NCBI GenBank assembly: GCA_028698535.1
Contig: JAQVDA010000019.1
Span: forward strand, 1-10,291
Direction of reading: 5' to 3'
DNA length: 10,291 nucleotides
DNA from: Bacilli bacterium
GTDB taxonomy: Bacteria; Bacillota_I; Bacilli_A; RF39; UBA660
Shown in pieces: positions 3,633-8,806 of the stretch (positions within the stretch are counted from its first letter, which is position 1; the number at the start of each line of letters is the position of its first letter). The translations under genes were made by a program, and so were the position numbers. The notes beneath the pieces were generated by a model, which worked only from the letters and a program-made list of their open reading frames with translations, had not been told where the DNA came from and made no database searches.

Positions 3633-4157
3633 TCAAAAAGTAGCTTCTCTTTTCATAATATAACGCCATTTAATACTCTTATATGGTTCGGAAGCATAAT
3701 CAATACCAACTCGGTTAGCAGTTGTATATTGAGCTTTAAAGCCATCATCTTCAAGCCATATCGCATTTGAAGTAGTAAGATCAGCCATATTTAATGATTG
3801 ATTAATATGCATCATGTTAGTTAATTTAGCTGGTCCATGATATCCCTCAACTCCTCTTATTAAAACCGCTTGCGGATAATCTTTTAAACCAGTAACAACA
3901 TTAAACAAATAGTGTATTCCATAACATAAATAAACATAAGCATAGCCGCCCCGTTTATATAAAGGATAAGTACGTTTTGTTTTACCAACGCGGGCATGAC
4001 AAGCCATATCTTCTTCCCCGCGGTAGGCTTCGGTTTCTGTAATACGATAACGCATAATCTTCCCATCGGGGAATTGTCTTACTAATAACTTGCCAATTAA
4101 AGCAGGAGCGACCACTAAAACATCTTGTCTATAAAAATCTATTCCTAATCTTGACAT
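3633..4157 (-). CDS. 3-methyladenine DNA glycosylase (AAG/MPG family)
   Basis: A 174-residue monofunctional base-excision repair enzyme that removes alkylated or deaminated purines (3-methyladenine, hypoxanthine) from DNA. Family motifs appear in order: FYRQDVLVVAPALIGKLL (8-25), ETEAY with the water-activating Glu43 and intercalating-side Tyr45 (41-45), ACHA with His54, GGYAYVYLCYG (70-80), AVLIR with Arg101, GPAKL (108-112), and the C-terminal RVGIDYA...WRY. It is slightly short (family about 190-200) because of compact loops, and all core motifs are present. GGGAGG lies 7 bases before the ATG. It ends on TGA right at the expected family C-terminus, evidence that UGA is a stop here. It has its own extended -10 promoter. 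Confidence 0.93.
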   Translation of the reverse strand: MSRLGIDFYRQDVLVVAPALIGKLLVRQFPDGKIMRYRITETEAYRGEEDMACHARVGKTKRTYPLYKRGGYAYVYLCYGIHYLFNVVTGLKDYPQAVLIRGVEGYHGPAKLTNMMHINQSLNMADLTTSNAIWLEDDGFKAQYTTANRVGIDYASEPYKSIKWRYIMKREATF

Positions 4158-4407: not shown

Positions 4408-4483
4408 TGGTGTCCCGTATAGGATTCGAACCTATGGCCCACTGATTAAGAGTCAGTTGCTCTACCGGCTGAGCTAACGGGAC
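4408..4483 (-). tRNA. tRNA-Lys(CTT)
   Basis: A complete 76-base cloverleaf. The acceptor GTCCCGT pairs with ACGGGAC, the discriminator is A and CCA is encoded. The anticodon stem ACTGA/TCAGT encloses CTCTTAA (anticodon CTT). It is second in a two-gene leftward unit, three bases after tRNA-Val. Confidence 0.95.
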
Positions 4484-4486
4484 ACA

Positions 4487-4563
4487 TGGTGGACGATATA
4501 GGACTCGAACCTACGACCTCTACCTTGTCACGGTAGCACTCTAACCAGCTGAGCTAATCGTCC
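4487..4563 (-). tRNA. tRNA-Val(GAC)
   Basis: A complete 77-base cloverleaf. The acceptor GGACGAT pairs with ATCGTCC except for a T-T-type oddity-free wobble set, the discriminator is A and CCA is encoded. The anticodon stem CTACC/GGTAG encloses GTGACAA. T33 is followed by GAC, which reads valine GTC codons. The loop should not be confused with tRNA-Asp, whose anticodon is GTC. Confidence 0.9.
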
Positions 4564-4715: not shown

Positions 4716-4744
4716 TAATAAAAACCTATCGTAAGCGGGTTTTT
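4716..4744 (-). terminator. terminator downstream of the nucleotidase gene, beside the att-like repeat
   Basis: Minus strand AAAAACC (plus one G-U pair) with GGTTTTT (4720-4744) forms a stem followed by ATTA. It is modest because the U-tract is part of the stem. It would serve the leftward kinase/nucleotidase operon. Its position 8 bases from the degenerate tRNA-Leu end copy suggests it was the original tRNA-Leu terminator before integration (inference). No gene was found in 4564-4855. Confidence 0.55.
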
Positions 4745-4751
4745 CCTTTTA

Positions 4752-4774
4752 AATGGTACAGACGAAGAAAACTT
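4752..4774 (-). repeat. degenerate copy of the tRNA-Leu 3' end (att-like)
   Basis: AATGGTACAGACGAAG (4752-4767) matches the end of tRNA-Leu AATGGTGCGGACGAAG (8113-8128) at 14 of 16 bases in direct orientation. ACTT follows in both after a small indel. Both mismatches are transitions that would leave G-U pairs in the acceptor stem. It is the expected far-end duplicate of an element inserted into a tRNA 3' end. Confidence 0.6.
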
Positions 4775-4855
4775 ATATACTGATTATTATAAATTGTAAA
4801 ACTTAATATGAAAATAATTTATGTTATAAGAAATGATAATTATAATAATAAAGAC

Positions 4856-5419
4856 TTAATCAGCAGTATATTTGTCAAAATTACTGGAAATTATTTTTCG
4901 GTTTTGCTTTGGTCTTTCTAGACGACGCTTTAATAATTGTATATATCTATCTTCATCCCTTGCTAATTCCTCATATTCTTTTTCTGATAAAGTTATGTCT
5001 GGGAATTGTTTTTCATAGGCGACCAATATTGTAGATGGATGCCATACATTAAAACCAGCCCCTTGTACTTTTTTCAATATAGATAAGTCATCATCAATCA
5101 ATAATATATCTTCTCTTTTTAGACTCTGTTTTTCGGCATATTTAATTAAAAACTCGGCTTTGCATTCGCCGGGGTATTTAACAAAATGGCGTTCTTCAAT
5201 GGGACAATATATATCTAGCCATCCGTTCTTTTCTTTTATACCCATTTCATGTGGTGAGGCTGATAATATTGCTAATGGATAACCAGTAAACAACTCAAAA
5301 ATGGCTTTTATGTTGATTAGTATCGGTTTTTTATTATAAAAAAAGCCCTCCTCGAACTCCGTTTGAGTAAAACTACCTGTATAGCTCGCTAATACACCGT
5401 CCATATCTATAAATATCAT
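4856..5419 (-). CDS. HAD-superfamily 5'(3')-nucleotidase-like protein
   Basis: A 187-residue HAD phosphohydrolase, most like the 5'(3')-deoxyribonucleotidase type carried by phages and low-GC bacteria, which dephosphorylates nucleoside monophosphates. Motif I is FIDMDGV with nucleophile Asp5 and acid Asp7. Motif II is the LSAS serine (Ser53). The probable motif III lysine is in GECKAEF (Lys87), and motif IV is LLIDDD (107-111), so the catalytic set looks complete. The basic C-terminus after about 165 (RRLERPKQNRK) is an extension of unknown role. Its ATG overlaps the TGA of the kinase gene by 4 bases (ATGA), giving translational coupling. It is the last gene of the operon, with a terminator about 110 bases downstream. 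Substrate is inferred from family and neighbours. Confidence 0.78.
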   Translation of the reverse strand: MIFIDMDGVLASYTGSFTQTEFEEGFFYNKKPILINIKAIFELFTGYPLAILSASPHEMGIKEKNGWLDIYCPIEERHFVKYPGECKAEFLIKYAEKQSLKREDILLIDDDLSILKKVQGAGFNVWHPSTILVAYEKQFPDITLSEKEYEELARDEDRYIQLLKRRLERPKQNRKIISSNFDKYTAD

Positions 5420-5967
5420 CTTATCAACCTCTTTATATCTTCTTTTTCATAAGGAAAATTAAAAATAACATCGGCACCTGTATTTTTAAATATTTCTTTA
5501 TCTTTTATAAATCGCTCTTCGGCAATTAGTGGATTATCGCCTCGCTTTTTAAAACGGTCTAAAATAATATGATCTGGAGCTTCTAATTGGATAGTTAAAA
5601 TATTAAAACGGTCCGATAATGCTTGTTTTAATTGCTTTGCTCCGTCTGGTTCAACTATAACTATGTTATCTCTGCCAAAGTCAAAACTATCAGCATTTAA
5701 ACCATAATAGTTGCCATTGTATTCTATATATTCAAATAATTCTCCCCTATTTTTCATTTCATTAAATCTTTCAATACTAATAAAATTATAATCCGCGCCA
5801 TTTGTTTCGCCGGTTCTAATTGCTCTAGTAGTAAAAGAAAGAGCTTCATGAAAATCATCTTTTAAGCTTTTAACTAGGGTTGTTTTCCCGGTACAACTTC
5901 TCCCCATTATAATTAATAAAATAGGATTAATTCTTTCATCTATTTCCTTTAAAGTTAATGTTTTCAT
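5416..5967 (-). CDS. guanylate kinase-like protein
   Basis: A 183-residue P-loop kinase of the guanylate kinase family, expected to make GDP from GMP with ATP. The Walker A is GRSCTGKTT (22-30), unlike the GPSGxGKGT of housekeeping Gmk and closer to phage-type versions. The GMP-binding residues are all conserved: SFTTR (44-48), Arg51 in RTGE, Tyr60 in ADYNF, Glu79 in LFEYIEY and the Tyr pair in GNYYG (85-89). The lid has RFKKRGDN (138-145) and ERF. It overlaps the upstream phosphoesterase stop and the downstream nucleotidase start by 4 bases each. It is probably an accessory, phage-derived paralogue rather than the essential gmk. An unusual nucleotide substrate is possible. Confidence 0.8.
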   Translation of the reverse strand: MKTLTLKEIDERINPILLIIMGRSCTGKTTLVKSLKDDFHEALSFTTRAIRTGETNGADYNFISIERFNEMKNRGELFEYIEYNGNYYGLNADSFDFGRDNIVIVEPDGAKQLKQALSDRFNILTIQLEAPDHIILDRFKKRGDNPLIAEERFIKDKEIFKNTGADVIFNFPYEKEDIKRLIR

Positions 5968-6929
5968 TTTTTAATTAGCACCTTACTAGCTTTTTTCTCT
6001 TGGCTTTCATAAACAGGAATTAATTCAGGAATTAATGATATAATATTACCTTGTTTATCAACTTTTGCCTCAATAATCCAAGCCCCCATATCATTACCTA
6101 ATGCAAAACTACGCATGAAAGGAGTATAACCTTGAACAGACGGAATTGAAAAAGCATGTATATTCCTATAAAACATATAAAAAGTCTTGTGATAATGTCC
6201 TTGGGCTAGTATGTTTGGTTTTTCACCGCCACGCATAGCATCTATAAACTTTTGCAACTTATAACTTCTAGCATAAGCAGAGCCCCCGCCAGGATGATGC
6301 ATGTGTATTTTACAGTTATTAATAATAACCTCGGCAAAATCAATGCCTAAATATTCCATATCATCTCGCTCTCTTGCTATTGCCCGTCCAATATCAGTAC
6401 CACCATTTTTTATGTGAGTATGGTCATGGTTACCAGTGATAAATAGAGTTCTTATTTTATCGCGTTTAGGGTATTTTTCTATGATGTATTCGGCTTGTTC
6501 ATCACTACCAAATGCTTTTAATTGGAATATATGCTCTGGTCTATTTTTATAAAAACCATCACTTATATCTCCACAATGTAATACTAATCTTATATTCCTT
6601 TTTTCAAATTCATCATATAAAGCATTAATTATCGCAGGCTGGTCTTGTTTACTACATAAATGAGTATCACTAATTAAAGTAAAACGAATCTTTTTGAGAC
6701 GGCCGTCGTATAACTCATATTTATTTTGCGTTTTTATTACTTTGTTTGCTTGTAATTTAATCATTATTTGCTTATTTTGCTGATAGACATCAATGTTATG
6801 ACCATCTAGTTTTAATTTTTCAATCAGACCTAATATTTCATAATCTTGAATATCTATTTTTTTACACAACCAGTTTAATTCTCGTTCTTTTTTAAGTAAA
6901 TTAAGTAATTTTAGGATTGTTTCTTCCAT
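5964..6929 (-). CDS. calcineurin-like metallophosphoesterase with N-terminal helical (HTH-like) region
   Basis: A 321-residue protein. Residues 1-75 are a charged helical region that reads like a winged-helix module (LNWLCKKIDI...LGLIEKLKLDG). From about 80 the metallophosphoesterase core follows: SDTHL (87-91), HCGDISDG (118-125), TGNHDH (165-170), HMHHPGG (209-215) and AQGHYHK (242-248), the full set of di-metal ligands. Such enzymes cleave phosphodiesters or phosphomonoesters in nucleic acids or nucleotides, and phage and plasmid members are common. GAGGT precedes the ATG. It is the first gene of a tightly coupled operon and ends in ATGA shared with the kinase start. Expression should be controlled from the operator-containing promoter at 7069-7097 through a leader of about 130 bases. 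Exact substrate is unknown. Confidence 0.85.
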   Translation of the reverse strand: MEETILKLLNLLKKERELNWLCKKIDIQDYEILGLIEKLKLDGHNIDVYQQNKQIMIKLQANKVIKTQNKYELYDGRLKKIRFTLISDTHLCSKQDQPAIINALYDEFEKRNIRLVLHCGDISDGFYKNRPEHIFQLKAFGSDEQAEYIIEKYPKRDKIRTLFITGNHDHTHIKNGGTDIGRAIARERDDMEYLGIDFAEVIINNCKIHMHHPGGGSAYARSYKLQKFIDAMRGGEKPNILAQGHYHKTFYMFYRNIHAFSIPSVQGYTPFMRSFALGNDMGAWIIEAKVDKQGNIISLIPELIPVYESQEKKASKVLIKK

Positions 6930-6933
6930 AATT

Positions 6934-7044
6934 CTACCTCACTTTTAATTTGTTTAAAGCATCTGATGCTTCTTTTTTGAATGGGTTTATAACATTATTT
7001 CGTGTGGATGCGTTAAGAGATTGCCGCTTCTAAGTTATTTTTAT
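6934..7044 (-). pseudogene. possible decayed leader peptide gene
   Basis: A 37-codon frame begins with ATA at the exact spacing (6 bases) from GGGGGT that the intact paralogous leader at 7743 uses for its ATG. It carries TAG at codon 5 and then 31 open codons (KRQSLNASTR...NPFKKEASDALNKLKVR) with coding-like composition. It ends in the Shine-Dalgarno of the phosphoesterase gene. A lost start plus an early stop fits a pseudogene. In DNA this AT-rich, a frame this short could also be chance. Confidence 0.25.
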
Positions 7045-7068
7045 CTTTCCACCCCCATCTTAATTTTA

Positions 7069-7097
7069 ATTATACTGTGGTTATACCGCAGTGTCAA
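7069..7097 (-). promoter_or_regulatory. consensus sigma-A promoter of the phosphoesterase operon with spacer operator
   Basis: Minus strand TTGACA (7092-7097), a 17-base spacer, then TATAAT (7069-7074), a perfect consensus match. The spacer is a near-perfect palindrome: ACTGTGGTTATACCGCAGT on the plus strand (7074-7092), 7-bp arms with one mismatch around a 5-base centre. A dimeric repressor bound here would block RNA polymerase directly. The divergently encoded XRE protein is the obvious candidate. Confidence 0.85.
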
Positions 7098-7137
7098 CCG
7101 TTTTTTGTTGTTTTAAACGCATTATAATTATAGTTTG

Positions 7138-7207
7138 AATTTCCGTTTTCACTATTTATTCGGAATCTAGTCTAATAAATACAACGATTTATTAAAAAAC
7201 GGAAATT
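7138..7207. repeat. 12-bp inverted repeat with CGGAA boxes upstream of the XRE gene
   Basis: AATTTCCGTTTT (7138-7149) is the exact reverse complement of AAAACGGAAATT (7196-7207). A third CGGAA box lies between them (7161-7165), and an 8-bp TAATAAAT/ATTTATTA stem (7173-7180 with 7187-7194). The arms flank the region just upstream of the XRE gene -10 and may be binding sites for autoregulation or DNA looping. Confidence 0.6.
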
Positions 7208-7245
7208 ACTCTAAAAATTTACCTGTTTTTTAACACAAAACATAG

Positions 7246-7251
7246 TATAAT
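7246..7251 (+). promoter_or_regulatory. -10 element of the XRE regulator gene
   Basis: A perfect TATAAT with no good -35 at 16-18 bases, so the promoter may be weak or activator-dependent. The predicted start (about 7258) falls at the AAGGAGG ribosome site (7257-7263), giving an unusually short leader. The SD-to-ATG gap of 12 bases is long. Confidence 0.5.
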
Positions 7252-7275
7252 TGTATAAGGAGGAAACAAAATAGT

Positions 7276-7650
7276 ATGAGTGATTTGGAAAATAAAAAAG
7301 TTTTTTCCGAAAACCTTAAGTATTACATGAAATTATATAATAAAGATAGAAATAGCATCTGTAAGGATTTAAATTTTAAATATACAACTGTTAGAGACTG
7401 GGTAAAAGGAAGAACATATCCAAGAATAGAGAAAATTGAAATGCTTGCTAATTATTTTCGTGTGCAAAAATCAGACTTAATTGAAGAAAAAACAAAAGAT
7501 GTTGAAAAAAAAGAATTGCAACAACTAGCAACTGTGATGAGAAAGTTAGGTTTTCTGGGTGAAAACGAAGAAGATTCAAGCGATGAAGAAATGGCAAATT
7601 TTTTAAAATGGTATAAGGCTAATAAAGATTTTATAAGAAATAAAAAATAA
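7276..7650 (+). CDS. XRE-family HTH transcriptional regulator
   Basis: A 124-residue protein with an N-terminal Cro/CI-type helix-turn-helix (residues 10-66). The recognition helices are in SICKDLNFKYTTVRDWVKG (27-45) and the typical ending is PRIEKIEMLANYFRVQKSDLIE. The rest (71-124) is acidic and helical, with a coiled-coil-like KDVEKKELQQLATVMRKLGFL, likely for dimerisation. There is no S24 peptidase domain, so it is not a LexA/CI protein cleaved on DNA damage. It is transcribed away from the phosphoesterase operon, whose promoter carries a palindrome that fits an XRE dimer. Its 3' end overlaps a possible small antisense reading frame. The start is the only ATG near AAGGAGG. Role as repressor of the neighbouring operon is inferred from arrangement. 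Confidence 0.88.
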   Translation: MSDLENKKVFSENLKYYMKLYNKDRNSICKDLNFKYTTVRDWVKGRTYPRIEKIEMLANYFRVQKSDLIEEKTKDVEKKELQQLATVMRKLGFLGENEEDSSDEEMANFLKWYKANKDFIRNKK

Positions 7651-7743
7651 AAACACTTCCCTACTATTAAGAACATGTTTTATTATCTTTTTAAAAATAT
7701 TTTCCCTTTTCAACATAATATAGATTTTTAGTAAGTTTGTCAT
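7603..7743 (-). CDS. possible 46-residue small protein facing the XRE gene
   Basis: An ATG at 7743 lies 6 bases after GGGGGT, downstream of a 17-base-spaced promoter (7769-7797). The product begins MTNLLKIYIMLKREN, has a basic middle (FKKIIKHVL) and a hydrophobic C-terminus (FLFFISYKIFISLIPF). The last 48 bases run antisense through the end of the XRE gene. Initiation signals are good, but length and overlap are weak points. It is not recognised. A small membrane-active peptide or merely an antisense transcript are both possible. Confidence 0.3.
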   Translation of the reverse strand: MTNLLKIYIMLKRENIFKKIIKHVLNSREVFLFFISYKIFISLIPF

Positions 7744-7768
7744 ACTTCTACCCCCATGTTAAGATATT

Positions 7769-7797
7769 ATAATACCACAGATTGCCAGCATAGGCAA
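7769..7797 (-). promoter_or_regulatory. second leftward promoter facing the XRE gene
   Basis: Minus strand -35 TTGCCT (7792-7797) and -10 TATTAT (7769-7774) with a 17-base spacer. An inverted repeat TTGCC/GGCAA covers the -35, and the half-site CTGTGGTAT shared with the operon operator abuts the -10. The following leader matches that of the operon promoter. Confidence 0.55.
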
Positions 7798-7814
7798 GTA
7801 TAGAAAATTTCAAG

Positions 7815-8065
7815 AACTCTTGACATTTAACCATTAAAAAGAAGTGTTTTTTCTATGACTAGGAAAGGACAAATATTTAAGAAGTTTTCTGATAAAGACA
7901 AAATAAAAGTTATAATGGGATGCGTAAACAGTTTAGGAGCTTATAGTTGATATATTCAATTATGGAGCTAAATATCGCAATATCAATGAAAACATTTCCA
8001 CTTAAAGAGGCCGTTTTGAAAAACTTTTTCACCGCTCTCTATTATATGGGGTCAAAAAGCACATT
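7815..8065 (+). pseudogene. decayed IS3-like element (orfA fragment)
   Basis: A 31-codon frame at 7855-7950 begins MTRKGQIFKKFSDKDKIKV, resembling the N-terminus of IS3-family OrfA proteins (pattern KGQxFxxYSxExK). It is broken by TGA, with OrfA-like codons (YGAKYRNI) continuing in another frame to about 8005. TATGGGGTCAAAAAG (8046-8060) resembles IS3-family right ends and a TTGAC stretch at 7820 could be the left end. The rest of orfA and all of orfB are missing. The similarity is judged by eye, so family assignment is tentative. Confidence 0.4.
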
Positions 8066-8072
8066 GTTTGAT

Positions 8073-8103
8073 AAAAAAATAAAAACCCTTGTACAATAAG
8101 GGT
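8073..8103 (-). terminator. terminator of the tRNA-CAT/tRNA-Leu transcript
   Basis: Minus strand stem ACCCTT/AAGGGT (8098-8103 with 8085-8090) and a 7-base loop, followed by TTTTATTTTTTT. It lies 10 bases beyond the tRNA-Leu end. Confidence 0.85.
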
Positions 8104-8112
8104 ATAATAATC

Positions 8113-8134
8113 AATGGTGCGGACGAAGGGACTT
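8113..8134 (-). repeat. tRNA-Leu 3' end copy (att-like, intact side)
   Basis: This is the last part of tRNA-Leu including CCA, the partner of the degenerate direct repeat at 4752-4774. The T-stem here relies on two G-U pairs (GGGGG with CCCTT), as could happen if the 3' half was replaced on integration. Confidence 0.55.
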
Positions 8135-8199
8135 GAACCCCCATGGATTACTCCGCTAGATCCTAAGTCTAGTGCGTCTGCCAGTTCCGCCACGTCCGC
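8115..8199 (-). tRNA. tRNA-Leu(TAG)
   Basis: An 85-base class II tRNA with a long variable arm. The acceptor GCGGACG pairs with CGTCCGC, the discriminator is A and CCA is encoded. The anticodon stem CTAGA/TCTAG encloses CTTAGGA (anticodon TAG). It is second in a two-gene leftward unit, and its 3' end appears to be an integration site. Confidence 0.95.
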
Positions 8200-8207
8200 C
8201 AATATTT

Positions 8208-8284
8208 TGGTGGACCCTGCAGGATTCGAACCTGCGACCGTCCGGTTATGAGCCGGATGCTCTAACCAACTGAGCTAAGGGTCC
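8208..8284 (-). tRNA. tRNA with CAT anticodon, probably tRNA-Ile2 (lysidine type)
   Basis: A complete 77-base cloverleaf with the acceptor GGACCCT paired to AGGGTCC, discriminator A and encoded CCA. The anticodon loop CTCATAA sits in stem TCCGG/CCGGA. It is not an initiator because position 1 pairs and the anticodon stem lacks the GGG/CCC run. The C4-G69 and C5-G68 pairs are those TilS uses to recognise tRNA-Ile2, and the whole resembles firmicute Ile2 genes more than elongator Met. Elongator Met remains possible. Confidence 0.85.
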
Positions 8285-8364: not shown

Positions 8365-8394
8365 AAAAAGATAATCATTCCGTTGATTATCTTT
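8365..8394 (-). terminator. terminator of the 139-residue protein gene
   Basis: A perfect 11-bp stem AAAGATAATCA/TGATTATCTTT (8384-8394 with 8367-8377) and a 6-base loop end in a short T-run on the minus strand. The gene's TAA stop (8387-8389) is inside the first arm. Confidence 0.8.
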
Positions 8395-8806
8395 GAATCA
8401 TATTTAGTAAATTAATTTTAAACATATCCCGTGATGGATCTTTTTTAGAGATCATAACGCCTTTATAGGTAGATAATTCAGCGCGATGTCCTTCATCTAA
8501 TATAGCTACCGGTGTAATATTAGTTAATAAAACCATCCGATCAGATTCATAGACAATATAATGTAAGGTAATATCGCCATGAACTTTAGAGAAAAGTGGT
8601 GCCGTTGGTAATTTTATTTGGTAAGTCTTGGTCTGGTTTTTTCTTGATACAGAGATTAACTCACCTTGGAAATTACCATCTCTTAAGCTCGGATAGATAC
8701 TAAATACTAACTTTTTATACGCCAGCATATTATATTTTTTAACTGAACGCTCTAATTTTTTAAACATTACTTCGTTTTCATACTCTAAAGTATAACCATT
8801 CTTCAT
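8387..8806 (-). CDS. conserved-looking hypothetical protein, 139 residues
   Basis: Not recognised. It is a soluble, basic protein with no signal peptide and no membrane segment. The N-terminus is helical and charged (YENEVMFKKLERSVKKYNML). The middle looks beta-rich (LVFSIYP, GELISVS, YQIKLPT, ITLHYIVYE, RMVLLTNITPVAIL), and it ends MFKINLLNMIQR. AGGGGG lies 8 bases before the ATG. A consensus promoter, its own terminator and ordinary codon use support a real, expressed gene. It is divergent from the THUMP methyltransferase gene, and a 24-bp palindrome sits between the two promoters, so the two may be co-regulated. Confidence 0.75.
   Translation of the reverse strand: MKNGYTLEYENEVMFKKLERSVKKYNMLAYKKLVFSIYPSLRDGNFQGELISVSRKNQTKTYQIKLPTAPLFSKVHGDITLHYIVYESDRMVLLTNITPVAILDEGHRAELSTYKGVMISKKDPSRDMFKINLLNMIQR

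Follow-up and report, generated by a model that had tools for sequence, protein, structure and literature searches.

Remnant of an element probably integrated at the 3' end of a tRNA-Leu(UAG) gene in a Bacilli bacterium

On contig JAQVDA010000019.1 of a Bacilli bacterium (GCA_028698535.1) a tRNA-Leu(UAG) gene is followed by four protein genes and then by what resembles a second copy of the tRNA 3' end. Do the genes between the two copies, at positions 4752-8112, constitute a former mobile element? The window analysed here is this whole contig (C29, 10,291 bases), one of 85 contigs in an assembly of 670,357 bases that is 80% complete. With a probability of roughly 0.8 we regard 4752-8112 as the remnant of an element which was integrated by a tyrosine recombinase into the 3' end of tRNA-Leu(UAG) and has since decayed. 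A temperate phage is its probable origin.

The evidence starts with the repeat itself (Table 1). The tRNA-proximal copy, AATGGTGCGGACGAAG, covers the acceptor 3' strand of the tRNA, its gene-encoded CCA and two bases of flank, because ARAGORN sets tRNA-Leu at 8115-8199 on the minus strand. The direct repeat claimed by the initial annotation held up on inspection of the window: the distal copy, AATGGTACAGACGAAG, has the same orientation and is identical at 14 of 16 positions. The annotation was also correct in that the two mismatches keep acceptor pairing as G-U, both substitutions being C to T in the tRNA sense, and in that an ACTT follows beyond a small indel, which is a single base. At up to three mismatches the core matched the window at these two sites only, while 200 shuffled windows gave a mean of 0.01 matches. 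At the same threshold the whole assembly contained the tRNA site (no mismatch), the site at 4752 (two mismatches) and three scattered sites with three mismatches; the reversed pattern as a control yielded one match. Thus no further site within two mismatches of the tRNA-Leu end was present in the 670,357 bases of the assembly besides 4752.

The repeat was then viewed across 110 tRNA-Leu(UAG) loci, i.e. the window and 109 same-family relatives, which were selected and not random. They comprise 705 kb of downstream sequence, with at least 3 kb in 85 of the 110. The last 14 bases of each locus's own tRNA were sought with up to two mismatches. Because this 14-base core was settled after the window copy had been seen, the relatives form the independent test. 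Downstream and on the same strand there were eight matches (the window, G017, G157, G396, G226, G264, G217 and G358), none on the opposite strand and none with the reversed core; shuffled cores gave a mean of 0.4 (20 shuffles, range 0 to 2). Control searches with the tRNA-Met end resulted in one match in 51 loci. The repeat was exact in G157, G396, G226 and G217, had one mismatch in G264 and two in G017 and G358. In G217 the exact match extends back to the AAGT in the T-loop, which is where the similarity in the window resumes after its one-base indel. Two further matches were located upstream of the tRNA (G095 and G016). The G358 repeat, with a broken CCA and no hairpin after it, was judged a chance match, yet is still counted among the eight. 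A scan with 16 bases at up to three mismatches found no copy in 30 loci including the window; it missed the window copy because four of the final 16 bases of the tRNA are changed there.

A locus in G017 (L047) has its two-mismatch displaced tRNA-Leu end 1427 bases downstream of the tRNA, near the contig end. Only a nucleotidyltransferase-type gene was found between, and the site is possibly another footprint lacking an integrase.

Five relatives have a tyrosine-integrase gene or fragment no more than 110 bp from tRNA-Leu(UAG). The integrase genes are convergent with the tRNA, and 7 (G396), 14 (G009), 57 (G226) and 108 bp (G157) separate it from their nearer ends; in G256 an 88-residue integrase fragment is 62 bp away. 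Five loci, three of them also in the integrase set, have a 14-base repeat at the far end that is exact or has one mismatch. No repeat was found in G009, where the contig ends 4.3 kb downstream, or within 8.5 kb in G256. Because of Zot-family genes in both (in G157 just above the Pfam cut-off) and a Rep_OBD gene in G396, the elements in G157 and G396 resemble inovirus prophages, and both of their ends are defined, the distance from tRNA-Leu to the exact repeat being 8.3 kb in G157 (L176) and 6.7 kb in G396 (L185). A Rep_OBD gene is present in G009, too. Direct repeats in tRNA genes have been used to define canonical attachment (att) sites of inovirus prophages (PMC6813254). Both prophages share with the window the bacterial family, the target tRNA-Leu(UAG) and the direct repeat at the far end. 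The window element differs in that neither a Zot-family or pI-type ATPase gene nor a Rep gene was detected (open reading frame (ORF) list, Pfam, PHROG), in the lack of an integrase, and in that it codes for a phosphoesterase and a kinase related to proteins of tailed phages. Smaller elements occur at the same tRNA, one of 2.4 kb with an integrase in G226 and one of 2.1 kb in G217, which codes for an HNH protein and in which no recombinase was found.

Because the fetched neighbourhoods share no cargo proteins with the window (see below), we concluded that the tRNA-Leu(UAG) site is reused by unrelated elements. Within one family, whose genomes are small (0.4-1.9 Mb), a single tRNA gene thus receives elements of several unrelated types, two of which carry Zot-family genes and resemble inoviruses. 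In a literature search, far from exhaustive, no mention was met of integration at tRNA-Leu(UAG) in this bacterial family. Repeat anatomy and the other elements at the same tRNA in relatives together support the proposal of the initial annotation that an element had integrated at the tRNA-Leu 3' end.

In G264 (L242) a serine recombinase is located between tRNA-Leu and the one-mismatch repeat, although tRNA genes are not among the known targets of serine integrases (PMC4383910); an IS110-like transposase was recognised there by reading only.

What did the element carry? The genes for the phosphoesterase, the kinase and the phosphatase overlap and form one minus-strand operon, and all three frames as well as that of the regulator are open. 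The regulator is a putative lysogeny-type repressor by its family resemblance (phrog_2967). The HAD/NT5C-like phosphatase itself matched no Pfam or NCBIfam family, and its homologues carry PF06941. Searches against the PADLOC defence families yielded no match for the three operon proteins and weak matches for the regulator. The phosphoesterase and, separately, the HAD protein were searched in 386 family genomes, which include no genome of the same genus. The phosphoesterase family is common, with a match in 154 of the 386 genomes, the own genome included. Among the matches listed, identities above 45% were confined to G210 (81%, a partial protein of 130 residues encoded at the beginning of a contig) and G142 (68%). 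Matches to the HAD protein are rare: 53 of the 386 genomes have one, again including the own genome, and among those listed no other exceeds 43% identity; in a large collection 20 proteins were found at an expectation value (E) of up to 0.001. A phosphoesterase just downstream of tRNA-Leu in G006 was rejected as shared cargo, being 27% identical (E 2e-8) in a widespread family.

An affiliation of the cargo with phages is suggested by the PHROG matches (Table 1) and from the occurrence of the phosphoesterase on an integrase-bearing contig of G210 and on a terminase-bearing IMG/VR contig. On the latter, which is 41 kb long, a 45%-identical phosphoesterase gene precedes the terminase gene by about 3.4 kb. 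The kinase had matches in 120 phage records, none of which reached 60% identity, and its own cluster is found on 18 contigs, the longest of 209 kb. On two IMG/VR contigs the gene for a relative of the regulator precedes a serine recombinase gene, immediately so in L090 and separated from it by two ORFs in L089. The HAD protein had no match in annotated phages, and neither it nor the kinase had a relative in viral contigs at the sensitivity of the search.

The contig of G210 (C31, 4.2 kb) contains, in this order, the phosphoesterase, a protein with a dATP/dGTP diphosphohydrolase domain, a 63-residue protein, the att-like sequence TTCTCCACCA and a terminator-like hairpin. Beyond TTCTCCACCA and facing the att-like site follow a tyrosine integrase, a 91-residue protein and a helix-turn-helix (HTH) repressor. 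From this order the contig appears to be phage sequence spanning an attP. Its polarity is that of the window, with the regulator towards the tRNA-side att and the operon towards the far att. Thus the two have in common the phosphoesterase, a repressor and an att-like site in matching polarity, while the integrase, the diphosphohydrolase-domain gene and an att-like end of another tRNA type set the G210 contig apart. Two fetched loci have a tRNA ending in ATATTCTCCACCA (tRNA-Ala in one, tRNA-Val in the other), but no such end was found in G210.

A number of results weigh against an integrated phage element, and they are given here and in the next two paragraphs. First, neither the ORF list nor a six-frame reading of the gaps revealed an integrase or integrase fragment in the interval. 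A profile search of the own assembly for PF00589 gave no match on C29 and two genes elsewhere, both Xer-like: one passes the cut-off of the NCBIfam XerD family, while the second, a partial frame, matches XerC/XerD best without reaching the cut-offs; no other tyrosine recombinase is present in this 80% complete assembly. Second, structural, packaging and lysis genes of phages are absent from the ORFs of the window (ORF list, Pfam, PHROG), so that, compared with a complete temperate tailed prophage, the repressor type is there and these genes are not. Third, the phage connection via relatives has gaps. The regulators of the window and G210 are only 31% identical, therefore the two elements are not the same; no tRNA of the G210 assembly (52% complete) could be matched to the att-like site of G210, and the 6.4-kb contig with the G142 phosphoesterase shows no recognised phage gene. 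Fourth, base composition provides no contrast, the element having a G+C content of 0.294 and the flanking genes 0.28-0.36. The terminators are of no help either. The initial annotation had noted that each repeat copy is flanked on the same side by a terminator starting AAAAACC. The placement of the AAAAACC was confirmed, but the value of the terminators was not: the distal hairpin folds no better than shuffled sequences (z +0.68), and AAAAACC terminators are not diagnostic because a very similar one follows tRNA-Gly on contig C25 of the assembly (86% over 70 bases). The terminators were hence dropped as evidence for integration.

Fifth, the empty site predicted by the initial annotation, in which tRNA-Leu would be followed by the terminator and tRNA-Val/Lys, was not seen in the relatives examined. 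On the side of an insertion, four relatives have a tRNA-Leu without cargo followed by the gene for methylpurine-DNA glycosylase (MPG), which in the window comes right after tRNA-Val/Lys, namely G031 and G358 of one genus and G142 and G253 of another. The gap from tRNA-Leu to MPG is about 106 bp in G031 and includes a 194-codon frame in G142; in all four tRNA-Val/Lys is missing between tRNA-Leu and MPG. Few genomes of the family encode MPG (7 of 243, counting the window's own), and the MPG neighbourhoods fetched for G016, G095 and G223 contained no tRNA. Conversely, a gene order conserved in distant relatives, which the annotation had named as an argument against insertion, was not observed. 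At E 1e-8 the four cargo proteins had no match in the fetched tRNA-Leu neighbourhoods of relatives, with the short loci G001, G020 and G022 outside the comparison.

Finally, the repeat is inexact (14 of 16), and when the final 30 bases of the tRNA together with 60 bases of flank were aligned locally, with gaps, to 3.6 kb of downstream sequence, the score was not significant, since 34 of 200 shuffles reached it. With the flank alone the alignment was equally at chance level (78 of 500 shuffles). The corresponding values for G017 were 1 of 200 (tRNA end plus flank) and 40 of 500 (flank alone). The similarity signal is confined to the ungapped core of 14-16 bases. On these grounds the copy at 4752 could be a chance match or the stump of an in-place duplication of tRNA-Leu, with the genes having arrived by ordinary recombination. 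Gene content at such a place turns over anyway: G026, the only one of 20 relatives with tRNA-Met-Leu and then tRNA-Val-Lys, has the pairs 8.1 kb apart with genes between that match none of the window's. Set against this are the rarity of the repeat in window and genome, the strand bias of 8 to 0, the exact repeats with integrases in relatives and the resumption of similarity at the very AAGT where the G217 match also ends. We consider a chance match or duplication highly improbable.

Integration at tRNA-Leu would have proceeded as follows. By site-specific recombination a tyrosine recombinase would have inserted the element at the 3' end of this gene. A copy of that end carried by the element would have restored the tRNA on integration, the old end with its terminator being pushed to the far side. 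Two end modules would then remain, the lysogeny-type regulator towards the tRNA and the nucleotide-metabolism operon towards the far att. The middle of the prophage may have been lost, and with it the integrase, which would be expected between regulator and tRNA where the IS3-type scrap now sits. The displaced tRNA end would later have decayed by C-to-T changes. The integration step is supported by the anatomy and the sibling elements; the order of the losses we infer.

The scrap is recognisable by 45 bases (7841-7885) that match, at 84% identity, the beginning of an insertion sequence (IS) with two ORFs in G047, the second ORF of which has rve and HTH_21 domains; the 31-residue orfA-like peptide matched neither Pfam nor PHROG. 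Together with the missing integrase the scrap could also be taken to mean that the locus grew by accretion, an earlier integrase-bearing element having been lost but for its att scar and the present genes having come later from one or more different phages. In line with this, no sibling element with the window cargo turned up in the 386 family genomes (phosphoesterase and HAD searches; the kinase was not searched). The gene polarity, on the other hand, fits a single prophage with its middle deleted, and we regard accretion as unlikely.

Open frames in the operon and regulator raise the question of whether the element is a remnant at all. It might be a non-autonomous element or phage satellite of small size that still moves, with regulator and operon as its full payload and a helper integrase acting in trans. 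The elements of 2.1 and 2.4 kb in G217 and G226 show that small elements exist at tRNA-Leu(UAG). In addition, the phosphoesterase is strongly constrained compared with two near relatives, with non-synonymous divergence (dN) of 0.14 and 0.26 and synonymous divergence (dS) of about 3, which is near saturation; yet dN/dS sums up all evolution since the divergence, most of which took place in other hosts. Further, the distal repeat is decayed, an IS scrap lies inside, and the own assembly has Xer-like tyrosine recombinases only. A still mobile element is thus quite improbable. An extension of the favoured reading, that a prophage was deleted to its two terminal modules, that the host now retains the operon as a module for nucleotide handling or phage defence and that tRNA-Leu(UAG) is a family-wide dock for such modules, appears rather improbable to us.

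How does the putative prophage remnant compare with known islands? An intact tRNA with a displaced 3' fragment in the same orientation and phage-type genes between is the standard signature of tRNA-targeted integration, and the Islander catalogue of islands integrated in tRNA genes requires a tyrosine integrase gene inside (PMC4383910). To that extent the window shares with Islander-type islands the intact tRNA, the downstream 3' fragment in the same orientation, a length above 2 kb and phage-type genes. The interval of 3.36 kb is within the 2-200 kb that Islander accepts, and the fragment lies outside any gene. Such islands differ in having an integrase inside, whereas the window has none and its fragment is decayed to 14 of 16. 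Because the integrase is missing, we class the window element as a remnant of the tRNA-targeted island kind and not as a full member. It represents a decayed integration footprint which a finder that demands an integrase, such as Islander, would reject.

Table 1. Features of the locus in window coordinates.
Feature	Position	Strand	Basis or remark
MPG gene, distal flank	3633..4157	-	PF02245
tRNA-Lys(CTT), distal flank	4408..4483	-	ARAGORN
tRNA-Val(GAC), distal flank	4487..4563	-	ARAGORN
Weak terminator-like hairpin 3' of the displaced tRNA end	4720..4744	-	sequence; fold z +0.68
Distal repeat copy AATGGTACAGACGAAG, putative displaced tRNA-Leu 3' end	4752..4767	+	14/16, both changes C to T in tRNA sense
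HAD/NT5C-like phosphatase	4856..5419	-	phrog_420 (unknown function, E 1e-7), phrog_2643 (5'-3' deoxyribonucleotidase, E 5e-7)
Guanylate-kinase-like nucleotide kinase	5416..5967	-	PF00625; phrog_1815 E 2e-36
Metallophosphoesterase, reads towards the distal repeat	5964..6929	-	PF12850/PF00149
Cro/C1-type HTH regulator, phage-type, reads towards tRNA-Leu	7276..7650	+	PF13443; phrog_2967 E 2e-20
IS3-type element scrap	7841..7950	+	31-codon orfA-like start 7855-7950, then stop
Terminator-like hairpin 3' of tRNA-Leu	8081..8103	-	sequence; fold z -1.03
tRNA-proximal repeat copy, att-like core AATGGTGCGGACGAAG	8113..8128	+	acceptor 3' strand + CCA + two flanking bases
tRNA-Leu(UAG), intact, putative integration target	8115..8199	-	ARAGORN tRNA-Leu(tag); Rfam tRNA 54.4 bits
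tRNA-Met(CAT), upstream flank	8208..8284	-	ARAGORN
Conserved 139-aa protein gene, upstream flank	8387..8806	-	matched in 49/121 fetched context loci

Three observations were made aside from these questions. In a locus of G016 (L100, G016:C24, 5723-7082) tRNA-Met and tRNA-Leu are about 1.2 kb apart while being adjacent in 19 other loci examined, which suggests an insertion between them in this genome. Tandem metallophosphoesterase genes of the same family are located near an Xer-like integrase gene and a Cas9 gene in G026 (L085, G026:C3, 8385-17068), and such tandem pairs recur in other family genomes. In the window itself, positions 1461-1865 encode a small secreted-looking protein with degenerate DNIDTDPN repeats.

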